From: an uncultured Acidobacteriaceae bacterium
GTDB taxonomy: Bacteria; Acidobacteriota; Terriglobia; Terriglobales; Acidobacteriaceae
Direction of reading: 5' to 3'
Length of the DNA: 64,000 nucleotides
NCBI GenBank assembly: GCA_903842065.1
Contig: CAIMKZ010000017.1
Location: 1 to 64,000 of the forward strand
Shown: positions 50,630-61,871 of the stretch, in pieces
Layout of the letters: each line of letters opens with the position of its first letter
How positions within the stretch are numbered: the first letter of the stretch is position 1
Notes under the pieces: model-generated
Seen by the model: the letters and a program-made list of their open reading frames with translations, nothing else
What the model was told of the DNA's origin: nothing
Databases searched by the model: none
Translations under genes and position numbers: made by a program

Positions 50630-50834
50630 GGTTTCGGGTTCCGTGTCAGAGAATGTGAGGAGCTGGTAGGCCAGGGTGTATCCCTGACAACAAGCTGGCA
50701 AAAACAATGCGGGCTTCTCCCCTTGAGCGGCGCCAAATCTACTGCCTCAATGCCGTTCCACTCAAGATGCCCCAGTGCCTGCCCCCGGCTTCACTTTACC
50801 TTCAAGAGGCTGAAAGATACAATCAAATGAGCAG

Positions 50835-50910
50835 CCGACGTAGCTCAGTTGGTAGAGCAGCTGATTCGTAATCAGCAGGTCATCGGTTCAAGTCCGATCG
50901 TCGGCTCCAG
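50835..50910 (+). tRNA. tRNA-Thr (anticodon CGU)
   Basis: 76 nt with encoded CCA. Acceptor stem GCCGACG (50835-50841) pairs with CGTCGGC (50900-50906), discriminator T, then CCA. The D-loop has AGTTGGTA, the anticodon stem is CTGAT/ATCAG around TTCGTAA with anticodon CGT, and the T-arm has ATCGG-TTCAAGT-CCGAT. The 250 nt that follow, up to 51163, hold two DnaA-box-like sites and no other gene. Confidence 0.97.
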
Positions 50911-54801: not shown

Positions 54802-57147
<2,346 letters not shown>

Positions 57148-57189
57148 GATTCATTATAGGCCGAGTGGTATTCTCTGGGTAATCGACGC

Positions 57190-57447
57190 CTACATTGGCC
57201 AGCCGTAGTCATCCCAACCGAACTCAGAGCAGTTGGCGGGTTCATCCGGTGACGGCACAGGGCGTAAGTCCGATATCGGCCAGCCATCTCGCGTCCAGAA
57301 GTAGCAAGGGTCAGATCCGCCCAGGTCATCGTAATCATATGGTTGGCATGACTGCGCATTGATGGGGACGAGAAGCGGTAGAACTGACCAAGTTGAAGCC
57401 ACCGCAACAGCAGAATGTATAAATTGTCGTCTCTTCCAATTTTCCAT
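57190..57447 (-). CDS. Small Tat-exported Cys/aromatic-rich protein
   Basis: 85 aa from an ATG with AGGGAG 8 nt upstream. MENWKRRQFIHSAVAVA and STWSVLPLLVPINA form a twin-arginine signal peptide. The mature part is about 53 residues, with Cys at about 34, 47 and 72 and a high content of Asp, Tyr and Trp (CQPYDYDDLGGSDPCYFW, then CSEFGWDDYGWPM). Nothing in it resembles a family I know. It lies 39 nt after the beta-propeller-like gene, so probably last gene of the exported operon. Export by Tat suggests a folded or cofactor-bound protein. Confidence 0.7.
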   Translation of the reverse strand: MENWKRRQFIHSAVAVASTWSVLPLLVPINAQSCQPYDYDDLGGSDPCYFWTRDGWPISDLRPVPSPDEPANCSEFGWDDYGWPM

Positions 57448-57486
57448 CTCAAATTCTCCCTAATCTCTTATTCGCAAACCCGAATT

Positions 57487-58839
57487 TCAGTTGTTGGCTG
57501 CATTGGCATACCACGCCCAATGCACCATGGGTATAGCGGAGTCGAAGGCTGCCAGCTTGTAGCCGGTTAGCCGAGAACCCTCGATCTCGGCAAAAAAGAG
57601 CTTGTCGTGAACGCGCAGCAACACCTGATGGTTATCGAAAACATGAACGATCTCGGAGTCGTCCTCAGGCAGGGCCAGGTCGATGCGGCGGTTGTCTGCC
57701 AGGTTCCACAGCGTGATCCGGCGGGCGGGAAGCGCGGCGGCATCAGGCATGGTACGAGTTTTATCCTCGATTCCCCAATCGGCCCGCTGCTTGCCGGTCG
57801 AGACTACAGTAAGCACTTCCGCAACAGCGGTATCCTTTACCTCGGATTTCGATATTAGTTGTGCCGAGACAGACGTAACTAGCCAGTCGTCGAAGAGGCG
57901 GTATCGCATCCGGTCCATATTCTCCGGACGATCTCCAAGAATGCCGACCGGAAGAACGGGGAGACGCGTCCATCTCCCGTCGCGGATAGTCTGCACAAAC
58001 ACGTCGATGTTGCGGTCAATCAGGTCATTACCGCCAATGCCAATAACAAGGTACCGTTGGTTAGCTGCATCCAGCGAGACTCGATGCTGCCCCTTCAGAG
58101 AAGCGAATTCAGAAGGCAGCGAGGTAAAGGGAATGGACGAAGCACCAAGCAGATACTCAGAGAGTGCGCCGTCTTGAGCCCACAGCCAGCAGCCCTCATC
58201 CGCAGGCACAACTCCATCAAATCGCAAATAGCGAAGGTAATCGCGATTGTTTTTCAGAATATAATGCGGATCACCTCGCTTTTTACACACGCTCTGCAAT
58301 GCTGATTTAGGAATGGTCAAATACGCTTTTTCGTTTAATTCTACCGGGGCCGGAAGCGTATTCCAGGTAATGCATATGCTATCTTCCCTGTCCATGACCG
58401 ATCCTAATCCGCATTTCAAAGCGCTGGAACCGCTACTCGTAACCTCGACGGCTTCGTACTTAAGCGGGTCTGCCTCGGGAATAATAATCGCGCAGCAAAT
58501 CACATCGTGTGCGTACTGGATCACCACGGAGCGGCCCACTTCGTTGATTGAAAATACCCCTTCCGGAATTCCATGGCGAGCGCCAACGATTTCAGTGCCC
58601 TTGAGTATTTCAGCCTGATGCAGCAATTGGCCGTTGCCAGACACACTATACAAATCGGTAGATACAGGCGAATCGAGGACAGGAGCTTCAATGTCCGAAG
58701 TCAATAGGAACAACACCTGAGCGCCCGGTGTGGCAGCCGCAGAACAGTTAAGCGCAAACAGCGAAAAGCCAAACATTATTACTGCGACGCAGATGCTGGA
58801 CATGATGCATCTCGGCCATCCTTGCTCTTGTTTCATCAT
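57487..58839 (-). CDS. Exported, beta-propeller-like protein of unknown function
   Basis: 450 aa with a signal peptide (VAVIMFGFSLFALNC). The rest is rich in strands with several WD- or propeller-like pieces (YSVSGNGQLLHQAEIL, RVSLDAANQRYLVIGIGGN in part, RRITLWNLADNRRIDL, VLLRVHDKLFFAEIEGSRL in part). No catalytic motif visible; six cysteines suggest disulfides. It begins 18 nt after the stop of the transglycosylase-like gene. AT-richer than chromosomal neighbours. Confidence 0.7.
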   Translation of the reverse strand: MMKQEQGWPRCIMSSICVAVIMFGFSLFALNCSAAATPGAQVLFLLTSDIEAPVLDSPVSTDLYSVSGNGQLLHQAEILKGTEIVGARHGIPEGVFSINEVGRSVVIQYAHDVICCAIIIPEADPLKYEAVEVTSSGSSALKCGLGSVMDREDSICITWNTLPAPVELNEKAYLTIPKSALQSVCKKRGDPHYILKNNRDYLRYLRFDGVVPADEGCWLWAQDGALSEYLLGASSIPFTSLPSEFASLKGQHRVSLDAANQRYLVIGIGGNDLIDRNIDVFVQTIRDGRWTRLPVLPVGILGDRPENMDRMRYRLFDDWLVTSVSAQLISKSEVKDTAVAEVLTVVSTGKQRADWGIEDKTRTMPDAAALPARRITLWNLADNRRIDLALPEDDSEIVHVFDNHQVLLRVHDKLFFAEIEGSRLTGYKLAAFDSAIPMVHWAWYANAANN

Positions 58840-58857
58840 CTCTTTGCCATCCGTGCT

Positions 58858-59973
58858 TCAAATTGTGTACGAAGGCATACTGCAAACGTTCGGAGTGTAA
58901 TTTGGATTCGTGGCACTCCCATAAGACCATCCGGACAACGGCCCATTCCATTTTTCCCAATATCCGCCGTTATAAAGGTTGATCCAGTCAGCGTTCCAAT
59001 AAGAATTATTGCCGGTTCCGTTCCAAGTGAAATTACAGTTGCCGCCTATCGGCTGTGGGTACCATGGATTAGGCCCCATATCTGTTTGCATTTGGTTGTA
59101 GTTATTCAAGAAATGGAAATATGCATTCATCCAATTCCCGTTTGCAACCTCGACTCCGTACCTAAGGTTAGTTGTCCATGTCCACAATGAATTGTCTGTG
59201 ACTTTGGTCGGGTTAGCATTAGGCGATCCATCGAGTTGAGACAGTCCAAAACCGTCAGGCTTGCCCCAGTCAGGTTTTCCCAGATATTCCCCTGTTGGAT
59301 TCATCCCAAAGAGGAATTGAATATTGCCTGGCGCATAGCTCCCTGTCCAGTTCGGATGGTCAGCGAAGGTCTCCCAGGTTAATGCATGGCCATACCACCA
59401 AGGAGTGCTAAGGCCAGATAGATACTCAGCCACCGATTGGTTACTAGGATTTTCACCCCTTATTCTGAAATCGAACCCATCGGCCGTGAGGCCATTTGTC
59501 GTAATTGAAAACCAACCGTTTCCGCCCTCGCTATACTGCCCAGGGTGACCGATATTTTGACTCCAGTCGACGGCCCATGGAACATTACCAGCCATCGGCT
59601 CAGATTGATACATACCATAACTCTGCGCATTCGGATACGTGTCGCCGGGCTGTGTAAACTGCACCATCAGTGTATACGAATATGACGTACAGGTAGAATT
59701 GTCCCCATTGCCATTGTAGGTTAGTCTGGGCATCTCAGGATTATTACCTGACCATGTCGTAGTAGCTGCAATACAATAGATTCCGCCCCGATAGAGTGCA
59801 TCGGAGTTGTTACATGGTTCTGACATGCTGACTGGAATACCGCTGAATTCATAATCCGAGCTTTGGCCAAAGCAGCGTCGAGTTTCAGAAATCATGAGAA
59901 CACTGCCAAGAAATACGATTCCGGCAACTGCCTGTTTCGACCAGATAGCGAGATATCTACTCATGAAAGCCAT
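58858..59973 (-). CDS. Secreted, lytic-transglycosylase-like protein
   Basis: 371 aa from the ATG at 59973, with AAGGAGG just upstream; the frame extends 27 codons further without membrane or family character. A signal peptide follows (AVAGIVFLGSVLMISE). The mature protein is rich in Trp, Asn, Tyr and Gly. ALTWETFADHPNW (candidate catalytic Glu) and PDGFGLSQLDGSPN, then NLRYGVEVANGNWMNA, have the order of SLT/lysozyme-like domains (Glu, G-x-G-L-x-Q-x, helix). This is a weak pattern match, so the activity is an inference. Second gene of a four-gene exported operon, AT-richer than neighbours. Confidence 0.68.
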   Translation of the reverse strand: MAFMSRYLAIWSKQAVAGIVFLGSVLMISETRRCFGQSSDYEFSGIPVSMSEPCNNSDALYRGGIYCIAATTTWSGNNPEMPRLTYNGNGDNSTCTSYSYTLMVQFTQPGDTYPNAQSYGMYQSEPMAGNVPWAVDWSQNIGHPGQYSEGGNGWFSITTNGLTADGFDFRIRGENPSNQSVAEYLSGLSTPWWYGHALTWETFADHPNWTGSYAPGNIQFLFGMNPTGEYLGKPDWGKPDGFGLSQLDGSPNANPTKVTDNSLWTWTTNLRYGVEVANGNWMNAYFHFLNNYNQMQTDMGPNPWYPQPIGGNCNFTWNGTGNNSYWNADWINLYNGGYWEKWNGPLSGWSYGSATNPNYTPNVCSMPSYTI

Positions 59974-60028
59974 CTCCCTCCTTAATTGAACTTTGCTGAT
60001 ATCCGAAAATCTAAAAACGCGAATCCGT

Positions 60029-60892
60029 CTACGCGACTGCCGTAAGCGCATCACGAGAATATCTCAGGCGGCGAGCAATGTCCGCTTCGAAAGCGGCTAG
60101 TCCCTGAGACTGGAGTAGGCCCTTCATGATTGCTGCCTCCTGGCTCCGTGCATGAGCATATATTTCATTAGGTGAATTATCCTGAGCTGGGTATCTGTAT
60201 TGAATATGTGAGTCTAGAAAGGCGTAAATTGCGGATGGATTGAGGGATTCGCCTTTGCCAAGTCCCGCCTTTAGCTTTTCGAGCTTTCGCCACACCGACA
60301 CGCCCTCGTCATGCTCGGCTGCGCGGCTGGCCAGATATCGATTCCGAAAATCGAACTGGTCAGGCCCTGCAATTGTCCCTCCAGAGTAGATCACCGCGTC
60401 TACCGAAATCGAATCTACTTCTGCATCCAGAAACGGGAAACGCGATAGGATCGTTTCTTCCACGCTTCCGGGCGCGAAGACGCGGTCGGGTCTGAAGTTG
60501 TAATCCTCAGTCGAGTAATTGAAGAACGGTGAGATGAGGCGCTTCTTGCCCGGTGCGACTGTCTTGACTCCGCTTCGCATCATGCAGTGCTTCTGCACAA
60601 AGACTGCTTGCAATAGGCGCGGATTCCCGCCCGGCTGCTGGATCGTCCAGAGAACGCGATAGGCTTTGGCGTGCTTGTCCCCTTCGTGGTGGAGCACGGC
60701 CATGAACTTTCTGGCTCTCGGGTAGAGCGGATGACCCGCCATCTTCGGATACGTATCCGAAACGTGGTAGTCGAACTCCGGCTCGTCGTGGCGGATGAGC
60801 CGGAGGCCTCCGGCCATTCGCGCATGGGCCGATGCCGCGGCATTGGCCGGATAGAATCCAGAGCCCAACAGAATCCTCGTGAGGTTCGGCAT
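60029..60892 (-). CDS. Hypothetical protein, first gene of the exported operon
   Basis: 287 aa, with GGAG 7 nt upstream of the ATG at 60892. MPNLTRILLGSGFYPANAA is not a clear signal peptide. The protein has mixed strands and helices, with Arg/His-rich parts (HARMAGGLRLIRHDEPEFDYH in two pieces). The C-terminal 80 residues are helical (IYAHARSQEAAIMKGLLQSQ, AAFEADIARRLRYSRDALTAV). I recognise no family. It is cotranscribed by position with the secreted transglycosylase-like gene (55-nt gap). A substrate-binding or regulatory role is not supported by anything visible. Confidence 0.68.
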   Translation of the reverse strand: MPNLTRILLGSGFYPANAAASAHARMAGGLRLIRHDEPEFDYHVSDTYPKMAGHPLYPRARKFMAVLHHEGDKHAKAYRVLWTIQQPGGNPRLLQAVFVQKHCMMRSGVKTVAPGKKRLISPFFNYSTEDYNFRPDRVFAPGSVEETILSRFPFLDAEVDSISVDAVIYSGGTIAGPDQFDFRNRYLASRAAEHDEGVSVWRKLEKLKAGLGKGESLNPSAIYAFLDSHIQYRYPAQDNSPNEIYAHARSQEAAIMKGLLQSQGLAAFEADIARRLRYSRDALTAVA

Positions 60893-61063
60893 GAGTAGTC
60901 TCCGTCGAAAACCAACTCTTAAAAGTTAGCTCGAAGGTTACTATGGGTTTTATTGTGCGTCAAGAGTAATACTCTAACTGTCTTTTTTATTACATAGGTA
61001 ACCGATGCTAGTTATCCTTATCTAACTACAACTGCTGAACACTGCTTGGTCATTCTATAAGCG

Positions 61064-61240
61064 CTACTCGCGCCGCCCCGGCGACCTACGCACTAAATGC
61101 CAAACCCCCATCGCCAGTGCCAGCACGGCCAGCGCATAAGCAAGTACCGCCGTCCGCCCGTGGTGAATCTGCCAGCCCTTCCAGAGGGCAACGCCTGAGG
61201 CGAGGATCATGATGAAGCCGCGTAATGGATCGGATCGCAT
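61064..61240 (-). CDS. Small two-helix membrane protein
   Basis: 58 aa from the ATG at 61240 (MRSDPLRGFIMILASG), with AAAGG 8 nt upstream. Two hydrophobic helices (GFIMILASGVALWKGW, AVLAYALAVLALAMGVWHLV) end in a basic tail RRSPGRRE. It begins 16 nt after the phosphatidyltransferase gene and is probably cotranscribed. Function unknown. Confidence 0.65.
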   Translation of the reverse strand: MRSDPLRGFIMILASGVALWKGWQIHHGRTAVLAYALAVLALAMGVWHLVRRSPGRRE

Positions 61241-61256
61241 GGTTACTACCTTTCTA

Positions 61257-61871
61257 TCACCGCGCATCGCTGGAACCCCCGCTGCCGTCGGCAATCATCT
61301 TCCGGCGCAATCCCCACGCCCTGCGTAGAGTCTTCACATCGCGGGTCCAGCGCGGCAACAGCACAGACATCGTGAGCCCCTCAAGATCGCACAGAATCCC
61401 CCAGCCCAGCGCCAGCGTTAGTACCCAATACGGACCACGAAAAGCGAGCGTAGCCAGCGCGGCGGCGGCCAGCAGGATTCCCCAGAACTTCGAGGCGTAG
61501 GTATGGTAACTGGCCATGCGCCGGTACTTCAGCCAATCGAAGATCCAGCGGATCACCTCAAGCGCCAGCAGCGCTGCAACCAGCGCCAGCTGCTCCCGCA
61601 GCACAGGCCAGGCGCGCAAAACCACCGCCGCCAGAATGCCAAGATAGAAGACCGTATCGGCCGCTGAATCCCCTATGCGCAGCGCGCTCGTCTCGGTCCC
61701 CCACCGGCGCGCCAGAATCCCGTCGTAGACATCCGAAAAAAAGCCCGCCAGAACCATCAGCCCCAGCCACGGCTCGGCGAAAACGACCCGCGCCGCAACA
61801 ACGGCGATAACCGGCCCCAGCAGCGCGCGGCCCACGACCATACTCCACGGAATGTCTCTGCGCCAGTTCAT
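61257..61871 (-). CDS. CDP-alcohol phosphatidyltransferase family protein
   Basis: 204 aa with about six transmembrane helices. The CDP-OH motif D-x-x-D-G-x-x-A-R is DVYDGILAR; the third and fourth aspartates follow as GDSAAD. The Gly normally four residues before the third Asp is Leu here (SALRIGD), a deviation from the consensus. Enzymes of this family join CDP-diacylglycerol to an alcohol such as glycerol-3-phosphate, serine or inositol phosphate at the inner membrane. The substrate cannot be told. It is divergent from gcvT across 58 nt. Confidence 0.85.
   Translation of the reverse strand: MNWRRDIPWSMVVGRALLGPVIAVVAARVVFAEPWLGLMVLAGFFSDVYDGILARRWGTETSALRIGDSAADTVFYLGILAAVVLRAWPVLREQLALVAALLALEVIRWIFDWLKYRRMASYHTYASKFWGILLAAAALATLAFRGPYWVLTLALGWGILCDLEGLTMSVLLPRWTRDVKTLRRAWGLRRKMIADGSGGSSDAR

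Follow-up and report, generated by a model that had tools for sequence, protein, structure and literature searches.

What kind of unit is encoded by the AT-rich gene cluster next to relA in a genome segment of an uncultured Acidobacteriaceae bacterium, and which genes belong to it? The segment (contig CAIMKZ010000017.1, positions 1 to 64,000; hereafter the window, meaning the whole 64-kb stretch) carries four adjacent open reading frames (ORFs), here named g1 to g4 in order of transcription. The cluster is a mosaic: g2 has evolved as one block with the N-terminal two thirds of g3, g1 belongs to another, and the two blocks have recombined; the C-terminal tail of g3 belongs, less surely, with the outer block of g1. 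As to function, we regard it as an even call whether the cluster is a horizontally exchanged cassette for an exported cell-wall enzyme and its inhibitor, g1 and the tail of g3 serving as bookends in an exchange akin to that of effector and immunity genes. The features concerned are the following.

60029..60892, reverse strand: g1, ORF of 287 residues with an ATG start; outer conserved block
58858..59973, reverse strand: g2, ORF of 371 residues with an ATG start; Sec-like signal, Ig-like and C-terminal lytic-transglycosylase-like domains; inner exchanged block
59449..59799, reverse strand: g2 residues 59-175, Ig-like beta sandwich
58861..59448, reverse strand: g2 residues 176-371, putative peptidoglycan-cleaving domain, with the E201 codon at 59371-59373
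57487..58839, reverse strand: g3, ORF of 450 residues with an ATG start and a Sec-like signal; directly 3' of g2
57850..58767, reverse strand: g3 residues 25-330, variable part, covarying with the putative catalytic domain of g2
57508..57732, reverse strand: g3 residues 370-444, more constant C-terminal domain, placed less surely in the outer block
57190..57447, reverse strand: g4, ORF of 85 residues with an ATG start; small, Tat-like (twin-arginine translocation) and Cys/Trp-rich, no convincing relative

Protein searches at E 0.001 returned 24 g1, 15 g2 and at least 24 g3 proteins (counting the window's own proteins or fragments identical to them; for g3, the 7996 best candidates were scored). 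Among the matches listed, contigs 267276, 29942, 63698 and 6814 are common to the g1, g2 and g3 lists and nine further contigs to two of them; contigs were equated across lists by size alone, and these counts concern co-occurrence only, the gene order there not having been seen. Alignment A1 omits P0001, which is the window itself, A2 omits P0041, A5 P0041 and P0058, A3 P0016, and A6 P0016, P0032, P0034 and P0036. Between the window and contig 29942 the identity is 84% over g1 residues 28-150 and 97% over the g3 tail, with 41% in the putative catalytic domain of g2 and 22% in g3 residues 25-150. A similar pattern is seen for contigs 47475 and 10814, which reach 91 and 88% in g1 and 91% in the g3 tail, but 34% in g3 residues 25-150.

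The identities of the parts vary together accordingly. Over six loci, the putative catalytic domain of g2 correlates with g3 residues 25-150 (r 0.90; 3 of 720 permutations) and with residues 151-330 (r 0.71; 1 of 720), and its correlation with the g3 tail is -0.38. Over five loci, the tail goes with g1 residues 28-150 (r 0.67; 8 of 120 permutations), and the g2 domain and the same part of g1 give r 0.05 (49 of 120). The trees, in which very small p values are to be read simply as "rejected", contradict each other along the same lines. The g1 tree joins the window with contig 29942 (100/100) and rejects its pairing with 267276 (p 5.4e-59), whereas the trees of g2 and of g3 residues 25-330 join it with 267276 (97/96 and 100/99, respectively) and reject 29942 (p 0.0028 and 2.4e-4). 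The tree of the g3 tail leans to 29942 (89/85). In a second case, the outer block has contigs 47475, 10814 and 5818 as neighbours, a grouping that the inner block rejects (p 2e-44); the outer block in turn rejects the pairing of 47475 with 55355 (p 2.7e-4). Exchange is the simplest account, since conservation alone gives no conflicting sister groups.

Within g3, the mean pairwise identity is 80% for residues 370-444 (24 rows) versus 37% for residues 25-150 (20 rows), and a profile self-comparison found no internal repeat; the propeller-like character given to g3 in the first-pass annotation is thus not confirmed. The genome G178, of the same class, holds both a g2-linked g3 (L019) and an orphan g3 without g2 (L018c), the N-terminal parts of which are 79 and 90% identical to it; L018c thereby resembles a left-over immunity gene. 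It stands in a tandem of three g3 genes at a contig end, and its companions L018a and L018b have another N-terminal type (24-30% identity) with a tail 72-78% identical to those of L018c and L019.

The base composition also places the anomaly in the middle of the cluster. The GC content of 57190-60892 is 0.518 versus a mean of 0.596 (standard deviation 0.017, minimum 0.553) for 3.7-kb windows starting at positions 1-53000. At third codon positions the content (GC3) is 0.625 in g1, 0.487 in g2, 0.581 in g3 and 0.535 in g4, relative to 0.815 in relA and 0.766 in a CDP-alcohol phosphatidyltransferase gene; it drops from 0.76 to 0.38 along g1 and climbs from about 0.5 to about 0.7 along g3. Because early g1 and late g3 are GC-richer, the AT-rich part is the cluster's middle and not its full length. 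The first-pass annotation had called all four genes AT-richer than their neighbours, which is true of the cluster as a whole and less so of the beginning of g1 and the end of g3. Its four adjacent genes on the reverse strand stand as described, with gaps of 55 nucleotides (nt) between g1 and g2, 18 nt between g2 and g3 and 39 nt between g3 and g4, and relA starts 42 nt beyond the g4 stop. By eye, a Shine-Dalgarno-like AAGGAGG precedes g2 and GGGAG precedes g4; promoter and terminator scans gave results at or below chance level.

The gene order was compared over 11 g2-bearing stretches, the window included (L115 and L116 are repeats of L108 and L022). On the same strand, g3 lies downstream of g2 in nine of them and directly so in eight; about 0.7 kb separates the matched g2 and g3 remnants of L109, and L110 and L111, both weak partial g2 matches, have no g3 match. 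Directly upstream of g2, g1 is found in the window, in L024 and in L019, where it is interrupted by a stop, so two distant acidobacterial genomes share the g1-g2-g3 order, g1 being broken in one of them. The order in L026 is g2-g3-g1-g3-g3, and broken g2 copies are present in L022, L107, L108 and L109. The real unit is the three genes g1-g2-g3, and membership of g4 is not supported: matches at E 0.014-0.037 occur in 6 of 79 other genomes of the genus, and those inspected (L145, L147, L148, L150) are unconvincing, L146 and L149 not having been inspected. The proposed four-gene system is thus reduced to three genes that do adjoin in other genomes, contrary to the outcome "never adjacent" by which the proposal was to fall, with g4 left as an orphan. 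That all four would be exported likewise holds in part: g2, g3 and many g2 relatives have Sec-like N-terminal signals and g4 a Tat-like one, and g1 shows no obvious signal peptide (all judged by eye), although several g1 relatives do.

The families themselves are unnamed. Pfam gave no match for g1, g3 and g4 and one insignificant match for g2 (DUF7155, E 0.17), NCBIfam none for any of the four products, and among them only g2 matched PHROGs, weakly (E 0.026); Pfam scans of single relatives (24 g1, 15 g2, 24 g3) yielded only stray matches, the best of which (E 0.014) was confined to one or a few members. The earlier statement that three of the products belong to no recognised family therefore stands.

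What might g2 do? All 19 g2 sequences, with identities as low as about 21%, keep seven residues unchanged (E201, Q219, F220, G243, Q246, W264 and N335), and the C-terminal part carries in order E201, GFGLSQ, NLxxG and YNGG. The order in SLT proteins is a catalytic Glu followed by GLMQ-like, NIxxG-like and YNxG-like motifs. A regular expression for the catalytic Glu, GxxQ, N[I]xxG and YN.G in this order matches 19 of 19 g2 sequences, 23 of 30 true SLT segments and 30 of 3800 shuffled g2 sequences, and its 33 matches among 1016 frames of at least 200 residues comprise 24 SLT proteins, six g2 and three that are neither. On the conserved residues in the 19 sequences and the motif order, the C-terminal domain is a candidate peptidoglycan-cleaving domain of the lytic-transglycosylase type, and the invariance of E201, G243, Q246 and N335 suggests that catalysis is probably retained. 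The full-length model (mean predicted local distance difference test score, pLDDT, 71.8) shows residues 59-175 as an Ig-like domain and the C-terminal part as helical, E201 lying in helix 194-205, and a structure search with this model matched the Ig part only; in the C-terminal part modelled alone (mean pLDDT 72.5), residues 45-89 of the model, where the motifs lie, are mostly below 50. No lysozyme-type Pfam family was matched by the 15 close or the four distant g2 members (E up to 1) or by the L107, L110 and L111 pieces (E up to 0.1), and a match to lysozyme 6et6 (E 0.053) was rejected: it is weak, and it aligns to a region C-terminal to the catalytic Glu and GxxQ motifs. The annotation of g2 as secreted and transglycosylase-like thus keeps its motif order and a probable role on the cell wall; a transglycosylase fold did not turn up in the structure searches.

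The Ig-like domain, together with the TIG repeats in the g2 of L025, the CarboxypepD_reg repeats in the g3 of L024 and the strong exchange of the core, would also be compatible with a diversifying surface module, in which an exposed g2-g3 complex has its core selected by phages, predators or ligands and the motifs are relics or serve binding. We consider this quite unlikely, as four of the motif residues would hardly stay invariant in all g2 sequences over such a range of divergence. It appears distinctly improbable that g2 is a nutrient-scavenging glycosidase for chitin-like or other polysaccharides, assisted by g3 and g1 in binding or maturation. Lysozyme-type motifs do occur in enzymes for related beta-1,4 N-acetylglucosamine polymers, but g2 and the N-terminal part of g3 covary as a matched pair, and L110, a distant relative of the g2 motif block, adjoins a PG_binding_1 protein. 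In that locus (L110:2875-6611) the PG_binding_1 protein, with a sub-threshold OmpA match, is followed by a 785-residue protein with the motif block at its C-terminus, possibly a separate effector-like pair. At L111:4585-6226, a truncated g2-like remnant has directly 3' of it a protein with a PD40 beta-propeller match, which is not a g3 match.

The distribution of the genes bears on whether g2 could be a housekeeping enzyme. It is found in 1 of 80 genomes of the genus, which is the genome of the window, and in 9 of 399 class genomes at E 0.01 (own genome included; two are weak partial matches); g1 occurs in 18 of 399 class genomes and the g3 tail domain in 8 of 299, that is, in the own genome and seven others. 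A set for remodelling the producer's own wall, with g2 as an autolysin, g3 as its regulator, g1 as an envelope scaffold and no role against other cells, would suit the Sec-like signals, the homologues of g3 that stand alone beside other genes and the lack of TssC described below. Exchange of the g2 core between lineages, together with its rarity and frequent decay, is however unusual for a housekeeping wall enzyme, and we hold such a set to be unlikely. The suggestion of horizontal acquisition is upheld by the same rarity in the genus, by the low GC content and by the conflicting trees. The relatives point to Acidobacteriota, class Terriglobia: Terracidiphilus metagenome-assembled genomes (MAGs) are named as the source of one g2 and one g3 relative, and distant g3 proteins in named records come from Acidobacteria, Terriglobia, Acidobacteriales or Bryobacterales MAGs. 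A contig profile scan found 12 loci with the distant g3 alignment and nothing with the close g2 alignment.

The route of acquisition was approached from several sides. The g1, g2 and g3 patterns have no relative among viral contigs, and by tblastn g2 is in neither plasmids nor phages and g3 is not in plasmids (g1 was not searched there); a viral or plasmid origin was rejected on these grounds. Silent g3 donor copies in the own genome were rejected as well, as there is a single match only, and the class searches likewise gave one match each for g2 and g1 there. Mobile-element borders were sought in the window as long direct repeats and Rfam matches, with none found, no integrase search having been made; its sole tRNA gene is at 50834-50909. 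For an empty site, tblastn of g1-g4, the CDP gene and gcvT against the 3.7-8.5 kb upstream of relA in 12 relatives gave no match, which indicates that the neighbourhood itself is rearranged and offers no clean empty site. In most of these relatives the gene upstream of relA is presumably an RlmI-type methyltransferase, and the cluster thus lies at a rearranged junction (57147-61871).

In the cassette reading, g2 would be exported by Sec, with an Ig-like and a glycan-cleaving domain and E201 as the catalytic acid, and would cut the peptidoglycan of neighbours, or the producer's own if unchecked. The g3 protein would be exported to the periplasm, where its variable part would bind and block the cognate g2, and g1 may be an accessory envelope protein (an anchor, carrier or adaptor) that needs no match to the g2 allele. 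A new g2 would then come together with the matching N-terminal part of g3 through crossovers located in g1 and close to the 3' end of g3. Two properties expected of effector-immunity pairs are found, namely a putative inhibitor gene beside the effector gene, as in the 9 of 11 stretches, and matched allelic variation, seen both in the r of 0.90 and in the tree grouping shared by g2 and the N-terminal part of g3; g2 may be a toxin neutralised by g3 as its cognate inhibitor. The minimal version of this mechanism would be plain Sec export with self-protection. More tentatively, and with doubt outweighing confidence, the cluster might be a hitherto undescribed antagonism system of Acidobacteriota built from three unnamed families, in which recombination at the bookends swaps a Sec-exported wall-cutting enzyme and the specificity part of its inhibitor outside the known contact-dependent injection machines.

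Several observations weigh against the cassette. TssC (PF05943) has no match in the own genome (completeness 100), other genes of the type VI secretion system (T6SS) and other secretion systems not having been searched, and the search matched E. coli as 1 of 14 control genomes; no known delivery route is therefore at hand, and the biochemistry is inferred from sequence. The C-terminal model of g2, though weak around the motifs, has no useful or lysozyme-type match in the PDB or among viral models, a profile comparison with local SLT proteins aligned 13 columns around GxxQ only, an SLT profile reached at best E 0.36 on the 19 g2 sequences, and the motif expression was written after the alignment had been seen. 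The tested clades, too, were named after the identities had been seen, and for the g3 tail the other grouping is not rejected (p 0.149); the tails of L025, L026a, L026c and L107 are only 41-57% identical to those of other groups. For the Ig domain of g2, no covariation with residues 25-150 of g3 is seen (r 0.14; 182 of 720 permutations; six loci). Finally, the stretches fetched around g2 in L022, L025, L107, L108 and L109 have no g1 match, and g3 relatives sit without g2 beside other genes in L119 and L123, so g3 is not exclusively a partner of g2.

Some of the solitary relatives have neighbourhoods of their own. At L119:639-4754, a gene that looks like T6SS TssG stands about 2 kb away from the g3 relative. 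No g2 or g3 was seen near g1 relatives among the selected frames inspected. Distant g1 relatives with Tat signals (by eye) in two different families of the class (L154:2980-5940 and L159:2332-5049) adjoin a protein that combines DUF6817 with an Asp/Asn beta-hydroxylase, and the g1 relative P0058 has its C-terminus swapped for unrelated sequence, perhaps a recombination junction. Small genes starting with MARIRKWQE lie near g1 and g3 relatives in L022 and L158, with sulfotransferase-like genes beside them (by Pfam match in L022, by eye in L158).

Among known systems, the closest in outline is X-Tfe/X-Tfi of Xanthomonas, described as a lysozyme-like type IV secretion effector with its own secretion signal and a cognate inhibitor, X-Tfi-XAC2610, which guards the envelope from self-damage and whose beta-propeller fold resembles that of Tsi1 and PliI-Ah (PMC10933484). 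Both would pair a lysozyme-like effector with a cognate inhibitor; unlike it, g2 has a Sec-like signal and no known delivery system, and the likeness is one of description (PMC10933484). In Vibrio cholerae, T6SS effector and immunity genes are reported to be exchanged by homologous recombination, orphan immunity genes being left behind (PMC5361080). The g3 arrays in L018 and L026 and the conflicting trees are reminiscent of those modules (PMC5361080). Here, by contrast, TssC has no match in the genome, and what stays constant is a gene of its own upstream together with the tail at the C-terminus of the putative inhibitor. Polymorphic toxin systems similarly join constant parts to exchangeable toxin and immunity parts, but their diversity lies in the toxin domain at the C-terminus of a longer protein, while here the whole g2 and the N-terminal part of g3 are exchanged (PMC3482391). 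The g2 motif order is that of the GH23/SLT lytic transglycosylases (PF01464), from which g2 differs in having no Pfam SLT match, a profile alignment confined to the GxxQ region and no fold match.

Among the paper titles listed in literature searches, none describes such a system; the logic of effector-immunity exchange is already known, and the families, the host group and a bookend inside the inhibitor were not found described. Acidobacteriota are abundant in soils, and the cassette, if true, would add a system of the weapon-and-antidote type to this phylum. Its design would be unusual in having a recombination end point inside the inhibitor, with a specificity part on one side and a more constant tail on the other. 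Three unnamed families would also gain a testable function, because cognate and non-cognate g2-g3 pairs could then be predicted from the trees.

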